Shown here in pieces: positions 8,905-18,589 of a DNA stretch of 64,000 nt. The DNA lies in assembly GCA_020348385.1 (NCBI GenBank), contig CP070750.1, positions 4,044,239 to 4,108,238 of the forward strand, in the 5' to 3' direction. The first letter of the stretch is position 1. The number at the start of each line of letters is the position of its first letter. This stretch comes from Candidatus Aminicenantota bacterium (GTDB lineage: Bacteria; Acidobacteriota; Aminicenantia; Aminicenantales; Aminicenantaceae). A model generated the notes under the pieces. The model ran no database searches, was not told where the DNA came from, and saw nothing but the letters and a program-made list of their open reading frames with translations. Made by a program: the position numbers and the translations under genes.

Positions 8905-9000
8905 TGGCGGGAAGGTGTGGGAGTTGAACCCACCCAGGACTTTTCACAGCCCCGCGCTGGTTTTGAAGACCAGGAGGCCCACCGGGACCAATACCTTCCC
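8905..9000 (-). tRNA. selC: tRNA-Sec (anticodon UCA) with encoded CCA
   Basis: The RNA begins GGGAAGGT at 9000 and ends ACCTTCCC-G-CCA at 8905. It has an 8-bp acceptor stem and a 5-bp T stem (GTGGG/CCCAC around TTCAACT), making the 13-bp stack typical of bacterial tRNA-Sec. The anticodon loop CTTCAAA inside CTGGT/ACCAG gives UCA. The long variable arm lies between the anticodon and T stems. It starts 5 bases after the selB stop codon, so it is probably co-transcribed with selB. Confidence 0.95.
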
Positions 9001-9005
9001 GAGAG

Positions 9006-10922
9006 TTATCTTAATATATGCACGTCTTTGTCGCGTTTTGTCAATCCTATATTGTCAAAATATTCCAAAATCGCTGTCGCGTATTTCCGCGAGAGCTGGA
9101 GGATATCGCGAAGTTCGGCAACCGTGATACTCGGGTACTTTGCAAGATACTGCAGGACAATCCTCCTGGCTTTTTCGATGGCATCCCTATGGTAGACGAC
9201 TTTGTCGCTGAGGCGCACTAGAACTCCTCTCTCCAACAGGTTATACATGAGATTTTTGAATTCCTTTGTGTTGAGCCCCATCTTCTGCCTCAGTTCTTCC
9301 TCGATCGGAGAAGCGAAACCCATCCGTTGGAAATCTTGCTCGATTCGCTGGAGAATCTCCTGATCTCTTGGTTTGAGTTTGGATTCGTATCCCACAAGGC
9401 TCACATCTGAGTTCTTCCGCTTGAGGAAGCCTATTTCTACCAGGTCACCAATAACCGCCCTAAACGTCATGCTGTCCGTCAGCTCGAGAATCTTGGACCG
9501 GAGTTCTTCATAAGGCATCGCCAAGCGATGAGGGTTTTTATCCAAATAGTCCATGATTGTGGATTTCGATTTCTTTTCCAACTCTTCATAAAAATTTGCA
9601 TGCAGATATTTGGCATCCTTATGGCCTGTTATTTTTATGACTTTTTTCGATTCTTCTGAATGATGAAGAGCATCCTCGAGGGCCACCTCCTTTTCCCCGA
9701 TCTTCTTCCGCATCTCAGAAAGCGACATCGGTCGGGTTTTGGCATCCAACAAGACCTGATAAATCCTTTCTGTCAAGTCGCCGCCAAGCCTCTGCAAACC
9801 CTCTACCGTTTTGGCATCGAATCTTTTGTGCTTTTCCGGAGTGGAATCGAGAATTTCCCCTCCCCCCATCGTCATTAAAGGGGAAAATGTCCGGATCACG
9901 AAGCGATCCCCCGGCAGAGCAACCGTGGGGGATTCGAGGACAAACTGAACCAAAGCTTCCTGGCCTGGATGTAGAAAATCTTCCTCGAGGAGAACCAATC
10001 GCGATATGATCTCGGTCGTTCCCACATGAAGCCTGATCCTCGTTCTGTTCTTGAGTTTTTTCCCGTAACTCTTCAACAACCTGAGGTTCACATCCAATCG
10101 ATAAGTCGGGCTGAGAGAACCGGGTTCACCCGCACATTGCCCCCGTTTCAACACCTCCTTTTTGACATCCTGTAGGTTCAAAGCTGTGCGTTTTCCCAAA
10201 ACCGATCGGGCCACTTTCCGGTGATGAACTTGAATCCCTCGGACTTTTCCGGTTATCCCCTCCGGGAATATCTCGATCCTATCTCCATTTTCGACTTGGC
10301 CCGAGAGTATTGTTCCGGCAATAACCGTCCCGAATCCTCGCATGGTGAAAACCCGATCGACCGGCATCCGGAATATCCCGCTGTCGTGCCGAGTCCCGAC
10401 TTCATCACCCAAAACCATCATGGCTTTTTTCAAATCGTCAATACCGTTGCCATCCACTGCAGATACGGGAATGATCGGGGCATTTTCCAGGAAAGAATCC
10501 TTCAGGAAATTTTTCGTCTGACCGGTCACCTCGAGAATTCGATCTTCTGTCACGAGATCTGATTTTGTGAGAGCGACGATTCCTCTTTTTACTCCGAGAA
10601 GCCGGAGGATATCAAAATGTTCCCTGGTCTGGAGGGAGATCCCTTCATCAGCCGCAATGACCAAAAGGGCTGCATCGATGTTACTCGCCCCTGCGACCAT
10701 GGTTTTGATGAGCTTTTCGTGGCCGGGCACATCGATGAACACGATCTGTTTGTCGTAATCTGGAGTGTCCAAAAAAACAAATCCCAGTTCAATCGTAATG
10801 CCGCGGCGCTTTTCCTCGGCTAAAGTATCCGCATCGATCCCAGTTAGGGCTTTGACGAGAAGAGTTTTGCCGTGGTCGATATGACCGGCGGTGCCGATGA
10901 TGACATGCTCGATATCTGTCAT
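9006..10922 (-). CDS. selB: Selenocysteine-specific elongation factor SelB
   Basis: About 638 residues from ATG 10922; a TTG seven codons upstream is an alternative. It delivers Sec-tRNA to the ribosome at UGA codons marked by a SECIS hairpin. Visible features: G1 motif [11 protein letters not shown], switch region [16 protein letters not shown], and TKSD; then two beta-barrel domains; then C-terminal winged-helix repeats (about 370-638) that bind the SECIS. Its presence, with selC, selA and selD, means this genome decodes UGA as Sec. It directly precedes tRNA-Sec. Confidence 0.95.
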
Positions 10923-10987
10923 GGCTGAGGATGCCTTTTCCAAGGAAGGGCTATAGAATAACAGAATATCCGCGTGTTGAAAAGAAA

Positions 10988-11401
10988 TCAGAGTTTTCTG
11001 GCCAAGCGCTTCAAATCACTCTTCAGCAACATAAGCTTGGCATCAGGGTACACAGCAGTCAGGACGTCCTCGAGATTCTGGATTTCTTCTGCAATCTTCT
11101 GACGAACAGTGGTGCCTTCTTTCGTCAACCAGATGTTTTTACACCGCCTGTCCGAATCGCAATCCACTCTTTCGATGTATATTTTTTCACACAAACGATC
11201 GATGACACGGCTTCCCCTGGAAACGGATAATTCCATGCGTTTAGAAAACTCTTGGCAGGTTATTTTTTCCTCCTTGCCGATGCAAAGAATCCCCCTATAA
11301 TCTGCTTCGGAAAGGCCAAGTTTCTTCCTTATCTTGTGTTCACGAGCCAGAATGCCTTTTCCGATTTCCCCGAGAATAACAATCAATTTTTCATCGGTCA
11401 A
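10988..11401 (-). CDS. MarR-family transcriptional regulator
   Basis: About 137 residues. A winged helix-turn-helix is visible (KLGLSEADYRGILCIGKEEKITCQEFSKRMELSVSRGSRVIDRL), with the beta-wing containing the conserved Asp-Arg of DCDSDRRCKNIWLT. The longest frame starts at a TTG at 11419. A TTG at 11401 follows AGGAGA by 6 bases and is the better start. The gene diverges from fmdB, and the shared 100-base gap holds two overlapping promoters around a perfect palindrome. It probably represses itself and fmdB. Confidence 0.85.
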   Translation of the reverse strand: MTDEKLIVILGEIGKGILAREHKIRKKLGLSEADYRGILCIGKEEKITCQEFSKRMELSVSRGSRVIDRLCEKIYIERVDCDSDRRCKNIWLTKEGTTVRQKIAEEIQNLEDVLTAVYPDAKLMLLKSDLKRLARKL

Positions 11402-11412
11402 TATATTTCTCC

Positions 11413-11442
11413 TTGACAATTGTTGCTATTAGCAAGTATAAT
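11413..11442 (+). promoter_or_regulatory. Promoter for the FmdB-type gene
   Basis: A consensus sigma-70 promoter: TTGACA at 11413-11418, an 18-base spacer and TATAAT at 11437-11442, pointing to the gene at 11506. The spacer contains the palindrome TTGCTATTAGCAA (11423-11435). Confidence 0.75.
11423..11435. promoter_or_regulatory. Putative MarR operator
   Basis: The perfect inverted repeat TTGCTA-T-TAGCAA lies inside the spacer of the plus-strand promoter. It touches the -10 of the minus-strand promoter, so a dimer bound here would block both. MarR-family proteins typically bind such palindromes next to their own gene. A second perfect palindrome, GTCAAGCTTGAC, lies at 11459-11470 over the minus-strand -35. 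Confidence 0.6.
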
Positions 11443-11722: not shown

Positions 11723-12295
11723 CTAGCGAAATTTTATCTGCGAAAATATATCCTGGTTTATTTTATTTACCTCTTTGGCAGCCGGAACAACCTGAAAAGG
11801 GATTTCGAACTCGAGCGTTTCCGGAGCCAAACACGACACATCATCGCAAGCCTGATATAAAAAGCTGGCCTTCAACATATTCTTTCCCTGCGGTATCGTA
11901 TCGCTGACGTGGATGCGTGCTCCCAAAACAACTTTCCCTTCGTAGACCTGGAGTTCCACCTCAGAGAAACTGTAGGTTCGTGTTTCAGGAACAGGATAGT
12001 AAATCTCATCAACTTCGACATTGTCATCCTCTTCGATCATGAGGGTACACGCGATCAGAAACTGATCGGTCAGCTCAGGACCGTTGATGTGCCAGCCCGG
12101 AGTGATGTCCAGGAGAAAAGCGACATCGATTTTTCCTCCCGGGTGCACGCCGTCATGAGAAACATAGGTTTTGACATCAAGGACTTCCCCTTCGGTCCCT
12201 CCTGATGAAAACCCCATCAGAAGAGGAAAACAAACAAGGGCAAACAAGGATGCGACTCTATGCCATGATTTGGATTGAAACTTGTTCTTCAACAT
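11723..12295 (-). CDS. Exported DsbD-alpha-like thiol protein
   Basis: 190 residues with a signal peptide (hydrophobic to about residue 30). The body resembles the N-terminal Ig-fold domain of DsbD: PGGKIDVAFLLDITPGWHINGP, then the cysteine pair in YQACDDVSCLAPETLEFEIPF. In DsbD this domain passes electrons to periplasmic partners. Here the membrane and thioredoxin domains are absent, so it must act as a separate subunit or a thiol-binding protein. It lies 62 bases downstream of the thioredoxin-like selenoprotein in the same direction, which suggests a shared redox role. No clear Shine-Dalgarno is seen. Confidence 0.75.
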   Translation of the reverse strand: MLKNKFQSKSWHRVASLFALVCFPLLMGFSSGGTEGEVLDVKTYVSHDGVHPGGKIDVAFLLDITPGWHINGPELTDQFLIACTLMIEEDDNVEVDEIYYPVPETRTYSFSEVELQVYEGKVVLGARIHVSDTIPQGKNMLKASFLYQACDDVSCLAPETLEFEIPFQVVPAAKEVNKINQDIFSQIKFR

Positions 12296-12357: not shown

Positions 12358-13881
12358 CTACTTTTTTTCTTTTGTTTTTTCTATGGCTTTTTTTATCTGC
12401 TCTATTTTGCTCTTGTACCGGACTTTGACCTGATCATCGGCGAGTTCATAGGCCTTTTCCGCGGCCTTGAGCGCGTCCTCATAATTCTCCAGTTTCTGAT
12501 ACACGGTGGCCAAGGTGTTCCAATTGTAGGAAGCTTCCTGTAGCTCGATGGATTTTTTCACCGCTTCGAGAGCGCTTTCCAAGTTTTTCCCCTGTTGGGC
12601 CCAAAACATCGCATAGCTGTTCAAAACTGTGGCATTATCTTGATGTTTTGTCGCAAATTCAGGCCCAAAAATCTTCAGGGCCTTTTCTTCCTTTTCCAGC
12701 TTGAGGAAATTCTCCGCAGCAGCCCGGAAGTTAGACCACCTGTCCGGGTTTACCTTCAAGGCTAACTCCATCATGGTTTCAGCATTTTCGGTATTGGTTT
12801 TGTGTTTCACCCAGAAGCTGGCATACTGCATGAGCGTGTAAGTCAGATCAGAAACCTGTCTCTCTGCGAATCTCTTGCCGAAAGTATCATTCGCTTTATC
12901 CTTTTCTCCGCTCAGCATGTATAGTTCTGCAAGATCCTTCACGAAATAAGGATCTGGATTATATTTCATGATATCGTTGTTGATTTTTTCTGCCAGCTCG
13001 ATCCCCTTATCGATGTTGTCCTTATCCTTATCCCGGATGATTCTGGAGATATAAGAGCTGAGGACATAGGGATCATCGGGATACCTGGATGTGTATTCGT
13101 CGAAGAATACTTTGGCTTCCTCTTTGGGAGCCCGTGTCTGGTAATAATAACTCAAACGCGAGTATGAAGATTTCATCAACGGGCTTTCCGGATACTTTTT
13201 GATAAAAGCCTTGAGCGGTTCCGGATCCATTTTGCGGGCAAAAGCCGACATGGCTCCTATCGAGAACTCAGCGTATTCGGTGAAGGTAACCTTTTGGTCT
13301 TGATAATCCGTGGTTCCTTTTGCCCCGTTCGGGTCAAGGGTCAAAACTTCATTGTATAGCTCCTTGGCTTTTTCCTCCTCATATTTTCTGTCGTATTTCC
13401 GCGCAAGCTTAAAAACCGTTTCGACGTTTTTGGGATCTTCGGCGTATGCAGCAGAAATGGACTTAAACGTGTCGATACCCTTCACGCTTTTTTCGATGGT
13501 TTCGAGGAACTTTTCCGGAGGAGGACCATACCCGACATGCCAGTCATACTCTGAGCCATCATTGTCGAGTATCAATGTCGTCGGTGTGGCCCGAATGTTG
13601 AACCTTTTGTAAACCTCGTCTCCTATTTTATCTCCCCTTACGGCATGGAAAAGAACAAAATTCTTGTTGAAAAACTCTTGAAATTTTTTGTTTCCGTAGA
13701 ACTGCTGATCCAGCAGTATGCAGGATCCTCAGCCATCCGAGAAAAAGTCGATCAGAACCAGCTTGTTTTCGCTTTTGGCCTTTGAGACAGCATCGTCAAG
13801 GCTGCCTTGGAACCAGTCCTGAGCGACTCCAAAGGAGGATAAAAAAATGAGGAGAAGAGATAGAACGAATAATTTTTTCAT
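12358..13881 (-). CDS. Selenoprotein: exported thioredoxin-like (UxxC) protein with TPR repeats
   Basis: The frame from ATG 13881 (preceded by GAGGAGGTAAG) to 12358 is interrupted only by a TGA at 13729-13731. Reading it as selenocysteine gives 507 residues: a signal peptide (1-20), a thioredoxin-like domain (about 21-130) with U51-G-S-C54 in place of CxxC and a cis-Pro loop RATPTT (P100), then TPR-like helices to the end. Sequence on both sides of the TGA belongs to one thioredoxin fold, which rules out two separate genes. A SECIS-like hairpin follows, and selD and selA lie directly upstream. Probable role: periplasmic thiol/disulfide redox. A caller that treats TGA as stop would give fragments of 61 and 405 residues. 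Confidence 0.9.
13702..13716 (-). promoter_or_regulatory. SECIS-like hairpin for the UxxC selenoprotein
   Basis: In the mRNA, 12 bases after the UGA, CTGCT-GGATC-AGCAG forms a perfect 5-bp stem (6 bp with the flanking A-T) and a 5-base loop starting with GG. The loop lies 17 bases after the UGA, within the known bacterial SECIS window of roughly 16-37. Bacterial SECIS loops usually expose a G to SelB. Confidence 0.7.
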
Positions 13882-13995: not shown

Positions 13996-15198
13996 CTAAT
14001 TTTTGGGATTCACGGTCAAAATGATCTTTCCATCGGATTCAGACACAACTCTGCCGATGATTGCCGCCGAGTTCACCCCTTTTCCCTTGAGTTTTGCTAC
14101 AAACTCATCTGAATGATCTTCCTTGACCGCAATAAGAAATCCCCCTGACGTCTGAGGATCATATAGGGCAATCTCCACATCTTCGCTCACGCCCTCATTG
14201 ACCTCCACGTATTGAGTAGCGTATTCCCTGTTTCTCTCGATGGCACCGGATATCAGCTCTTCCCGCACATAGCCCAACACATGCTTAAAAAAAGGAACCT
14301 GGTCCGTAAAAATCTCTGCTGTGACCTTACTCTGGGCGACCATTTCGCTCAGATGTCCCATCAAGCCGAAGCCTGTGACATCCGTTGCTGTGGTAACGCC
14401 AGCTTCAACCATAGCCTCGGCGGCCACTTTGTTCAGCTCTGCCATGGATTGTCCTATAACTGCCATGTCTTCCCTGGACGCCCGACCCAATTGACTGGCA
14501 AAACTGATGACTCCGGTTCCTAGGGGCTTGGTTAGGATCAAAACGTCCCCGGGTTCGGCCTTGTCGTTGGTGATGATCTTTTTTGGGTCAATGACGCCTG
14601 TCACGGCAAACCCGAACTTGATCTCGGTATCCTTGATACTATGTCCGCCGATCACTTCAACACCGGCTTCCTTCATCTTATCGATTCCGCCCCGCAACAT
14701 CTGATTCATGACCAAGTGACTCATGGTTTCGATCGGGAATCCTACGACCGACAATGCGGTTAGCGGCTCGCCTCCCATGGCATAGATATCGCTTAGGGAA
14801 TTGGCGGCGGCTATCTGACCGAAGATGTGCGGATCGTCCACGTTGGGAGTGAACACATCGACAGACTGGACCAGGGCCAAATCATCTGTCAGCTTGTACA
14901 CTCCGGCATCGTCGCAAGTATTGGCACTGACAAGGACTTTCGGGTTCGATATAGCTGGGAGGCCGGCCAACACAATTTTCAGGTCGGTCTGGTTGATTTT
15001 CGAGGCACACCCGGCATTCTCCACAAACTGTGTAAGCGGTATGTTATCCGGCATATCCCCCAATCTTTCCCCTGCGCATAAGCAAACGTTTTCCTGTTTG
15101 AAAAGATCGCAGGGGCACGGCTGTTTGGGATTGCAGATGCATTGCCCGAGTTTGATCGAGCGCTGCATAATCTGTTTTCTTTTTTCTTTATCGGCCAT
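13996..15198 (-). CDS. selD: Selenide, water dikinase SelD with Cys-rich N-terminal extension
   Basis: 400 residues. It makes selenophosphate from selenide and ATP, the Se donor for Sec synthesis. The active-site segment is NAGC64-ASK67, with Cys in place of the Sec seen in some SelDs. Later AIRS-type motifs include VDVFTPNVDDPHIFGQIAAANSLSDIYAMGG, VIGGHS, TDVTGFGLMGHL and DPQTSGG. Unusually, about 45 residues precede the core and hold three CxC pairs (C20/C22, C28/C30, C39/C41), able to bind a metal or Se. It starts 8 bases after the selA stop, so the two form an operon that runs on into the selenoprotein gene. Confidence 0.95.
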   Translation of the reverse strand: MADKEKRKQIMQRSIKLGQCICNPKQPCPCDLFKQENVCLCAGERLGDMPDNIPLTQFVENAGCASKINQTDLKIVLAGLPAISNPKVLVSANTCDDAGVYKLTDDLALVQSVDVFTPNVDDPHIFGQIAAANSLSDIYAMGGEPLTALSVVGFPIETMSHLVMNQMLRGGIDKMKEAGVEVIGGHSIKDTEIKFGFAVTGVIDPKKIITNDKAEPGDVLILTKPLGTGVISFASQLGRASREDMAVIGQSMAELNKVAAEAMVEAGVTTATDVTGFGLMGHLSEMVAQSKVTAEIFTDQVPFFKHVLGYVREELISGAIERNREYATQYVEVNEGVSEDVEIALYDPQTSGGFLIAVKEDHSDEFVAKLKGKGVNSAAIIGRVVSESDGKIILTVNPKN

Positions 15199-15206
15199 GG
15201 AATACC

Positions 15207-16616
15207 CTAGCCTCTCTTGAGGGCAAAAAGTAAAGCATCCAGAACAACCTTATCTTCCTCTTCTTGGATTGTCCGGACATCCAACAGCACGGCATCATTC
15301 TGCACCCTCGGAAAAACAGGGGTTTGATTATACCGCAACAACCGGCCTAAGCTATCGGCTGAAAGATCCTTAGATTTCACCATCAAAAGTTTGGTGGGAA
15401 TGGTCTGCACAGGCACAGATCCGCTTCCAACCTGAGAACCTCCCTCCACAACAGAGAATTCCACCCCCTCTGGAATCTGTTTCATGAGACTCCTCATAAC
15501 CTTTTTTGCCCGCGATTCAATTTTTTCGATAGGGAGTGCAAACATCTTGTGAACAGGATGCTTCTCCTTCAATTTTTCCGGTAACCGGAAAAGCCTCAGT
15601 GTCGCCTCCATCCCGGCGATGGTCATCTTGCCGATACGGAATGCCCGGGCCAGAGGATTTTTTCTTATTCTCTTGATGAGGTCGGCTTTTCCCACGATAA
15701 TGCCAGCTTGAGGGCCACCGATGAGCTTGTCCCCGCTGAAGCAGGCAACATCAGCTCCTGCCATCAGACTGTGTTGGACCATAGGCTCAGATTCGAAACC
15801 ATAATCACGCACATCCACCAGAGCTCCGCTTCCCAGGTCGTCGATCAGGGGAACATTGTGCTCTTTGGCCAGCTGGGCCAACTCTTCGATATCAGGCTCC
15901 CCTGAAAAACCCACGATGCGGTAGTTGCTGTGATGCACGCGCATGATTGCACCTGTTTCTTCCCAGATCACCGAGGCATAATCCCAGAGATGAGTCCGGT
16001 TCGTGGTGCCCACTTCCCGGAGAATGGCTCCGCTTGCCGCCATGACATCCGGCATTCGGAAAGCCCCACCGATCTCGACCAACTGGCCTCGGGAAACGAT
16101 GACTTCCTTTCCGTTTGCCAGGGTGTTTAGGGTAAGCATGGTGGCGGCTGCGTTATTATTAACGACAGTTGCAGCCTCAGCTCCCGTAATCTCACAGAGA
16201 AGATCATCGAGATGGACATCTCGATGGCCCCGCCTTCCTGTCTCGACATCTGTGGCCAAAGTGCAGTACCCTTCGATAACCTCATTGATGGCATCCTGTG
16301 CATCTTCGGAAAGCACAGCCCGTCCCAAACCTGTGTGGAGGATAACGCCTGATGCATTTACGGCCTTGACTAGAGAGGGCAAAAATGCCTTTTGGAGATG
16401 TGTCTCGATTTCTTTCAGGATGCTCTCCTGAGACAGCTTATCTTCTGCAGGTGAATCCTTCTCTTCTTTTCTAATGGCAGATCGCAACTCCTCTATGACC
16501 TTTCGGACTGCATCAACAACAATCTCCCTTCCATACTTTTCTATCAAACGTTCCAATGCCTCCGTTTTCAGAAGACTGTCCACAGAGGGAAGCTGACGGA
16601 GAATATCTTTGGTCAT
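15207..16616 (-). CDS. selA: L-seryl-tRNA(Sec) selenium transferase SelA
   Basis: About 469 residues from ATG 16616, which follows ACAGGAAATAAAA; in-frame codons upstream to 16706 are not needed. It is a PLP enzyme that converts Ser-tRNA(Sec) to Sec-tRNA(Sec). The N-terminal domain LRQLPSVDSLL is typical of SelA. The PLP lysine lies in CFSGDKLIGGPQAGIIVG, and GREIVVDAVRKVIEELR and HTGLGRA are also family-typical. It heads the selA-selD-selenoprotein run on the minus strand. Confidence 0.95.
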   Translation of the reverse strand: MTKDILRQLPSVDSLLKTEALERLIEKYGREIVVDAVRKVIEELRSAIRKEEKDSPAEDKLSQESILKEIETHLQKAFLPSLVKAVNASGVILHTGLGRAVLSEDAQDAINEVIEGYCTLATDVETGRRGHRDVHLDDLLCEITGAEAATVVNNNAAATMLTLNTLANGKEVIVSRGQLVEIGGAFRMPDVMAASGAILREVGTTNRTHLWDYASVIWEETGAIMRVHHSNYRIVGFSGEPDIEELAQLAKEHNVPLIDDLGSGALVDVRDYGFESEPMVQHSLMAGADVACFSGDKLIGGPQAGIIVGKADLIKRIRKNPLARAFRIGKMTIAGMEATLRLFRLPEKLKEKHPVHKMFALPIEKIESRAKKVMRSLMKQIPEGVEFSVVEGGSQVGSGSVPVQTIPTKLLMVKSKDLSADSLGRLLRYNQTPVFPRVQNDAVLLDVRTIQEEEDKVVLDALLFALKRG

Positions 16617-17020: not shown

Positions 17021-18589
17021 TTAATCGGGCAGCTTTGCTGCGATGCGGAATGTTCCTCCAAACCGGCGGCACCAACCTTCGTCGTTGTTGCAGATCCAGA
17101 CATCCGGGGTAATCTCGACTACGAATTCCTTAGCCCCAGATTCCTTTTTCCACCAGAAGGCAAGGATGCGCGGATCGGTGTCTTCTTCCCCTTCCCGATC
17201 TCCAGCCCGGACGGAATTCTTTTCCAACTCAACACCAGATACAGGCTTCAGGCCGATTTGAGCCGGGGAGGCCAGATTATTCCACACGAAGCCTGATTTG
17301 TCGTCAACTTTCAGGATTAAATAGACCATGCCTTGTCCAGGATGTGCTGGCTCGTTGTATATGGATGCTTCGACAGAGTAGGGAAGAGATGCTTCGGAAG
17401 TTTGTGTGCAATCCAGAACACTGAGCTTATCTTTCGCGGGAAGTTTATCAGGCAAAATCTCGTCCATGCTTTTTTCGAGTGTCGGAATAGAACCGAAGAC
17501 CTGGAATGTCCTGGTCCACTCTTGCGATGTTTCATCTTCACCCTGTCCCATCGTAGCCTTGACGGTGGCTGTAAATTCCAGGTTCTCAGCATCTTCGTTT
17601 TGGGCCCACATCACGCCGACGGTATGGGGATAGATGTCCTTTCCCTCCCTTCTTTTGCCCGCCACGATTTTGTTTTTCTGCAGTTCGACACCTTGAGCAC
17701 CTTCCAGCAGGATCTCGGTCGCCACAGCATTGTCAAAAAAGGCTTTGCTTTTTTCATCGGGACTGACCGTTAGGTACATCCGGCTTAACCCGGTGGGCGT
17801 CACTTTGGGAGGGAGTGTTCCGGCCTCGAGATGAACGGGAGCATTTTCCCCTGAAACATCTTTGATTTTCAACGGAGACAAAGCCTGGCGGGGCACTTCG
17901 GTTGCGGGAACCTCATCGTTGTCCGCGAAGGAAACGGCCATGCGTGGTCGATTGGCAAGCTCTTCCCATTTCTTTTCGGAAATCCCGGATGGTCCCAACC
18001 TCTCCTCCAACACTTTTTTCAACTCCTCGGGTTTAGCCCAATCCCAAGAGGCAAGAAGGGTTCCATCCTTGTCGATGACAAATTCCATGTTGGGCATTCC
18101 GCCATAGGTATTCTGCAGTGTATTGTCCATGTTATCGATGATCCAGGGGATGTCGAGCTGCAATTCGGCACTGGCTAGACGGGTGTACTCCTGTCGCATT
18201 TCAAGAGAGTCGGGCTGGGTGAAACCATAAAATCCAGGGTGAGGTTCACGACTCAAAACATTGTAAAACGAAACGCCGCGGTGACCGAAGGCTTTACTCA
18301 GAGCCTCCTCACGGGAGGCTATGCGTCGCCAAGGCGGTCACGTACAACCTCCCCACTGGATGACAAGAAGGGAATCTTTGTATAGGTTGCTCAATGGGAT
18401 CTCGTTCAGATCCTTGTCGTAGATCATGATGTCGGGAACTTTCTTGCCGACCTTTGGAGATCGTTCTTCCCAAGGAATACGCGGTCTGCGCTGCTGTTGT
18501 TGCCGCTGCTGCTGTCCCTTGAGAAAGGAACCGATCAGCAGAAGCACGAACAGAGAAAAGAAAACAAGGGAAATGCGTCCTTTTTTCAT
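17021..18589 (-). CDS. Selenoprotein: exported deiodinase-like protein (CTUPP) with two repeated beta-domains
   Basis: One frame from ATG 18589 to 17021 is broken only by TGA at 18338-18340. Read as Sec it gives 522 residues. There is an N-terminal membrane anchor or signal (6-23), a Gln-rich linker, then a thioredoxin-fold domain (about 45-220) with GGC82-T-U84-PPW, nearly identical to the GSCTUPPF active site of iodothyronine deiodinases. Downstream, E115-P-H117 matches the deiodinase EAH segment and NMDNTLQNTYGGMPNMEFVIDKDG its later core. Residues about 235-522 are two related DsbD-alpha-like domains, each with GVEL-K-N...AG.REG; the second has the cysteine pair ICNNDEGWC. The reaction is unknown: reductive dehalogenation or peroxide/thiol chemistry. 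Confidence 0.88.
18302..18320 (-). promoter_or_regulatory. SECIS-like hairpin for the deiodinase-like selenoprotein
   Basis: Seventeen bases after the UGA, AGCCTCC-CGTGA-GGAGGCT forms a perfect 7-bp stem with a 5-base loop containing GU. The loop begins 24 bases after the UGA, inside the bacterial SECIS range. Confidence 0.7.

Follow-up and report, generated by a model that had tools for sequence, protein, structure and literature searches.

The stretch of DNA analysed here, hereafter the window, comprises 64,000 nucleotides of contig CP070750.1 (assembly GCA_020348385.1) from a Candidatus Aminicenantota bacterium. On its minus strand, from 18589 to 17021, a frame that we call dio runs through 83 codons, a TGA and a further 438 codons to a TAA stop. 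The translation starts with MKKGRISL, reads GGCT-TGA-PPWRR around codon 84 and ends in AAKLPD. The gene is single-copy in its genome (one contig, 4.35 Mb). It is the first gene of a minus-strand operon for making and inserting selenocysteine, in which selA, selD, the Sec-thioredoxin-TPR gene, the DsbD_N gene, the MarR regulator gene, selB and the tRNA-Sec gene follow in this order; selA, selB, selD and tRNA-Sec all lie in the window on the strand and in the operon of dio. The features are:

17021..18589, minus strand: deiodinase-like selenoprotein gene (dio), 522 aa, single in-frame TGA (Sec84)
18512..18589, minus strand: hydrophobic N-terminus (residues 1-26), an export signal or anchor as judged by sequence inspection, not by a predictor
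17990..18457, minus strand: deiodinase-like thioredoxin-fold domain, residues 45-200, with C82, T83, U84, E115 and H117
18338..18340, minus strand: TGA codon of selenocysteine 84, context GGCT-U-PPW, codon shared by six genomes
18302..18320, minus strand: predicted bacterial SECIS hairpin AGCCUCC-CGUGA-GGAGGCU, from fold, near-invariant DNA and codon identity
17489..17869, minus strand: first Ig-like beta-domain, residues 241-367, without conserved Cys
17030..17437, minus strand: second Ig-like beta-domain, residues 385-520, DsbD-alpha-like, with a Cys pair
17069..17092, minus strand: C500...C507 codons (WIC-NNDEGW-CR), invariant in 8/8 sequences
15207..16616, minus strand: selA, Sec synthase, start set at the MTKDILRQ methionine (the open frame extends to 16706)
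13996..15198, minus strand: selD, selenophosphate synthase with a Cys-rich N-terminal extension
12358..13881, minus strand: second selenoprotein, exported, with TPR repeats after a thioredoxin domain (DG-U-GSC); its TGA lies at 13729-13731
11723..12295, minus strand: stand-alone exported DsbD-alpha (DsbD_N) protein, C-x4-C
10988..11419, minus strand: MarR-family regulator, between the redox genes and selB
9006..10943, minus strand: selB, Sec-specific elongation factor
8905..9000, minus strand: selC, tRNA-Sec

The initial annotation had read dio as a single frame crossing a TGA in GGCT-U-PPW, with homologous sequence on each side. We searched 148 related genomes and found full-length homologues in five (protein identity 50-89%), as well as C-terminal fragments at contig ends in two more. 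The second hit in G006 (L010) is an ordinary AhpC/TSA-type redoxin and was set aside. All six full-length genes carry a single TGA, always at this codon, with homologous protein on both sides of it; in distant relatives (e.g. L041, L046, L054, L056) Cys replaces Sec. A separate gene downstream of the TGA is rejected on this shared codon and on the constraint on both sides. Across the whole protein the only conserved cysteines, besides U84, are C82, C500 and C507. A nonsense mutation or sequencing error, leaving two unrelated frames or a decaying gene, has a negligible chance of being correct: we found no point in its favour, and we reject it on the TGA kept at one codon in six genomes, the constraint on both sides and the Sec machinery in the operon. 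The conservation indicates that the TGA is a genuine Sec codon, more than could be due to chance. The E-P-H group noted after it is likewise present in the translation (E115-P-H117), and from inspection of the N-terminus we infer an exported protein, as had been proposed.

The predicted SECIS hairpin begins 17 nt 3' of the TGA and has the apical loop CGUG(A/U). The 61-base stretch that holds it folds only slightly better than shuffles (z -1.45), hence the argument for a SECIS rests on conservation. The hairpin DNA is almost invariant among the six dio genes. Where residues are identical, codons agree in 42% of pairs gene-wide versus 89% at residues 91-99, which rank first of all nine-residue windows for synonymous-codon identity and coincide exactly with the hairpin. 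Consensus folding of the six genes recovers the apical stem and contains no compensatory changes, because the hairpin sequence hardly varies; no SECIS family of Rfam matched at the gathering score. Hairpin and codon-identity peak together look as expected for a bacterial SECIS.

Position within the selenocysteine operon, to which the initial annotation made no reference, is conserved as well. The dio gene stands immediately upstream of selA in all seven contigs with a visible neighbour (G000, G003, G006, G020, G021, G027, G035), and the cassette can be followed through to tRNA-Sec in G000, G003, G006 and G035; in other families of the order, selA-selD-selB occurs but dio does not. Within the family, selA accompanies dio in 7/8 carriers, the eighth being cut by a contig end (Fisher test, P-value about 0.0004, for 38 genomes by our own count from genome labels). 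In the phylum sample, selA is present in 28/33 genomes with a TGA-bearing relative versus 253/396 overall (P-value 0.005, not corrected for kinship). Searches for a plasmid match and for a viral relative found neither. Adjacency to selA in 7/7 contigs, together with a gap of several hundred bases between the two genes in the window, could point to a selenium-dependent leader, in which translation through the UGA tunes selA-selB expression to selenium supply and enzyme activity is secondary. However, protein, Cys pair and catalytic residues are strongly constrained, the dio strand showed no terminator-like structure between dio and selA, and the related fusions examined elsewhere in the phylum are not adjacent to selA; we hold such a role to be very unlikely.

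Several further observations concern the same operon. The Cys-rich SelD extension (CICNPKQPCPC...NVCLCAGE, ahead of a normal SelD domain; gene at 13996-15198, minus strand) recurs in other Aminicenantes (e.g. L018, L019, L020, L028, L034) and is perhaps a metal or Fe-S site. The TGA of the Sec-thioredoxin-TPR gene is conserved in L018, L029 and L030. The Sec operon of G006 encodes a protein of 684 aa (L018 3202-5256, minus strand) that carries a HELGH motif like that of zinc peptidases and is also found in L029; the L018 protein has no Pfam or NCBIfam match. In G030 dio was not found, and the place upstream of selA is taken by a gene for an FAD-binding oxidoreductase (L026 3-1805, plus strand).

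The initial annotation had likened the core of the protein to that of iodothyronine deiodinases and proposed profile searches and structure prediction as checks. The predicted structure is a thioredoxin/deiodinase fold followed by two C-terminal Ig-like sandwiches. The top rows of the fold search are mouse DIO2 (Z 16.1, rmsd 3.2, 158 aligned) and DIO3 (Z 15.8, rmsd 5.3, 166 aligned), at a level shared by thioredoxin-like and peroxiredoxin chains, ResA and TlpA-like ones among them; a profile search matched 4tr3 at E 7e-11, with ResA second. Family models stay below threshold both for deiodinases (PF00837, T4_deiodinase, 20.2 bits versus gathering 27) and for AhpC-TSA (22.8 versus 26). The NCBIfam deiodinase model (NF038285, deiodinase_rel) matches residues 44-178 at 3.5e-17 and 62.9 bits, far under its cut-off of 250 and as a domain match only. 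Neither the peroxiredoxin motif P-x3-(T/S)-x2-C (Ile77 and Gly81 occupy those places) nor the C-x-x-C active site of TlpA/ResA (here U-P-P-W) is present. The rank of ResA and TlpA-like structures in the fold search and of ResA in the profile search, and another exported thioredoxin in the operon, would suit a TlpA/ResA-type thiol-disulfide reductase or cytochrome c maturation factor, in which U84 reduces envelope disulfides with electrons from the C-terminal domain. Since the second Cys of C-x-x-C is Trp87 in the UPPW sequence, the classic dithiol mechanism is absent, and we consider this function unlikely.

The protein shares with DIO1-3 the fold, the CTUPP motif and the active-site residues, C82, T83, U84, E115 and H117 all being kept; the resolving Cys two residues before Sec is shared with DIO1 and DIO3. 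In human DIO1, mass spectrometry of the U126C enzyme revealed a disulfide between Cys124 and residue 126, and Cys124 is required for glutathione reduction; Thr125 is essential, S123A has reduced activity and H174A is normally active (PMC9141512). The invariant C82 occupies the place of Cys124, with the same spacing to U84 as Cys124 to residue 126, and Thr83 corresponds to Thr125. Unlike DIO1-3, the window protein is bacterial and has donor-like domains of its own. It also belongs to a different clade and lacks counterparts of DIO3 Ser167, Tyr197 and His219 (G81, L112 and no His in the TQPDSLE stretch); the absence of the first and third had been noted before, and Tyr197 now joins them. The deiodinase-specific loop (loop D), between the His and the next helix, is 8 residues shorter than in DIO3: His117 lies 10 residues from SLE, versus 18 in mouse DIO3 and about 21 in the animal-like bacterial L063.

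We looked for wider relatives with a catalytic-domain profile over 396 genomes of the phylum. Relatives occur in 47 of them, mostly with one TGA, and form several groups: FGSxTUPPFR, FGSxTUPFCG, Cys forms (SITCPVF, SATCPMT, SSTCPVT) and xGCLTUPPFL, every member of the last having a C-terminal domain that contains WNN. In a tree whose bacteria were sampled within this phylum, the Aminicenantes proteins are sister to the CLTUPPF fusions, together forming one fusion clade (SH-aLRT 94). Mouse DIO3 joins L059, L061 and L063-L065 (support 99) with the window protein outside, a placement that involves a long DIO3 branch and the only animal sequence in the tree. The FGSxTUPPFR proteins have the long deiodinase loop and up to 41% identity to mouse DIO3. 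Among them, L059, L061, L063 and L064 are short, N-terminally anchored Acidobacteriota selenoproteins with EAHP; as candidates for genuine bacterial deiodinases they rank ahead of the window protein.

An animal-type deiodinase is therefore rejected on the sub-threshold PF00837 score, the missing loop and residues, and the tree position. Of the proposed kinship the deiodinase-like thioredoxin fold stands, and the lost loop residues and the place outside the DIO3 clade make "deiodinase-like" the right term for the domain, with deiodination itself unsupported. Deiodinase-type chemistry might nevertheless be compatible with this active site, since DIO1 H174A is active and S123A only reduced. An extracytoplasmic reductive dehalogenase would make use of it: U84 would remove I or Br from natural organohalides as deiodinases do, and would then be regenerated by the donor domain. 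The CTU motif with Thr83, Glu115 and His117 as in deiodinases speaks for such an activity, and the partial function of DIO1 without Ser123 and normal function as H174A (PMC9141512) make the absences here non-fatal. Yet the loop falls 8 residues short, another residue stands in place of Tyr197, mouse DIO3 sits in another bacterial clade, and by eye no halogen-related genes were seen among the window ORFs examined. We regard dehalogenation as quite unlikely.

The C-terminal half had been described as two related DsbD-alpha-like domains, one with a Cys pair. The two Ig-like sandwiches are modelled with a mean pLDDT of 87.6, although the model is unreliable for how the domains of the protein sit relative to one another (pTM 0.45), and they are indeed related to each other (hhalign 98%, E 1.3e-13). 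The Cys pair is C500/C507, in the second domain only, plausible as a resolving or donor pair. The DsbD-alpha label is less direct. Neither domain matched Pfam, and profile comparison with the neighbouring DsbD_N protein found no relation. Structure searches of the PDB with the C-terminal model returned only generic Ig-like folds (Z about 8), with no DsbD-alpha among the matches listed; PDB profile searches, run with domain 2 as well as the fusion domains, gave no relative. Domain 2 does align over 118 columns, Cys pair included, with the C-terminal domain of the CLTUPPF fusions (E 8e-14), and those domains match DsbD_N in 6/9 cases (best E 5.5e-6). Via these intermediates domain 2 may be called DsbD-alpha-like, which is indirect support; for domain 1 the label would follow from its relation to domain 2, other comparison being weak. 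DsbD-alpha (PF11412) is, like domain 2, an Ig-like domain with a close Cys pair, and homologues of domain 2 match PF11412; the window protein is not matched directly, and its domain is fused to a selenoenzyme, not to a membrane transporter.

The CLTUPPF fusions (L042-L045, L048-L050, L052, L053) resemble the window protein in having Sec and a DsbD-alpha-like C-terminal domain with WNN and a Cys pair. They differ in carrying a single such domain where the window protein has two, in having Cys at U-3 rather than U-2, and in a replaced catalytic Glu (LAHPE) where the window protein keeps Glu115. Some have EF-hand-like repeats; the DxDGDG type accompanies the DsbD-alpha-like domain in L042, L044, L045, L048, L049 and L067. 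None of the fusions examined adjoins selA, whereas dio is directly upstream of it, and their neighbours gave no functional hint.

Overall, we suggest, with a probability of roughly 55%, that dio encodes a cell-envelope selenoenzyme from the deiodinase-like branch of the thioredoxin/peroxiredoxin fold that carries, by fusion, a thiol donor module of its own. The Sec decoding context, the fold, the conserved residues, the fusion and the operon are established parts of this picture; the C-terminal domains probably recharge the selenoenzyme. The U84 selenolate would attack an oxidised substrate, and C82 would then attack the oxidised selenium to give a C82-U84 selenenylsulfide, a route modelled on that of DIO1 Cys124 and residue 126, whose spacing is the same. 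The C500/C507 dithiol on the DsbD-alpha-like domain would reduce this bond and be re-reduced by envelope thioredoxin-type partners; the operon supplies candidates in its Sec-thioredoxin and its stand-alone DsbD-alpha protein. A CcdA/DsbD membrane protein, which 6/8 dio carriers have, might also recharge C500/C507 in most relatives. The first Ig-like domain probably serves as a structural spacer. No DsbD/CcdA membrane protein was found in the window's own genome (83% complete, PF02683 included in the search) or in its congener, a point against this relay. The missing Pfam match and merely generic Ig-like structural matches of the C-terminal domains, their lack of a profile match to the neighbouring DsbD_N protein, the unreliable domain placement and the absent peroxiredoxin motif weigh on the same side. 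The substrate is probably not a hormone; judging by fold and company, our guess is most likely a peroxide, next a protein disulfide and third an organohalide.

Deiodinase-like selenoproteins of bacteria are already known. A 2005 study of the Sargasso Sea reported four Sec forms (PMC1088965), and a 2026 review includes the family and gives its motif as UxxC (PMC13188914); the novelty suggested in the initial annotation was overstated in this respect. That family (PF00837-related, NF038285) has Sec or Cys at the same deiodinase-like site and a bacterial SECIS, as here, but the window protein has CxU instead of UxxC, scores far below the NF038285 cut-off of 250, adds two C-terminal domains and is encoded in a sel operon. 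In the part of the literature searched, no paper links deiodinases with DsbD-type fusions or with Aminicenantes; the two names occur together only in a review, which we take to treat them as separate families, and the same partial coverage held no selenoprotein paper on the Aminicenantes lineage. The fusion and its operon position were likewise absent from the literature searched.

It is conceivable, if quite unlikely, that deiodinase-like/DsbD-alpha fusions form a class of self-recharging envelope selenoenzymes across Acidobacteriota, which heads the Sec operon of Aminicenantes, may be the main reason why the trait is kept and might dehalogenate natural organohalides outside the cytoplasm. 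The window protein bears on the origin of deiodinases and on the role of their bacterial relatives. With a deiodinase resolving Cys beside Sec and a probable built-in donor, it makes the question of re-reduction addressable in one polypeptide, and its place at the head of the operon ties a single enzyme to retention of the Sec trait in the lineage.
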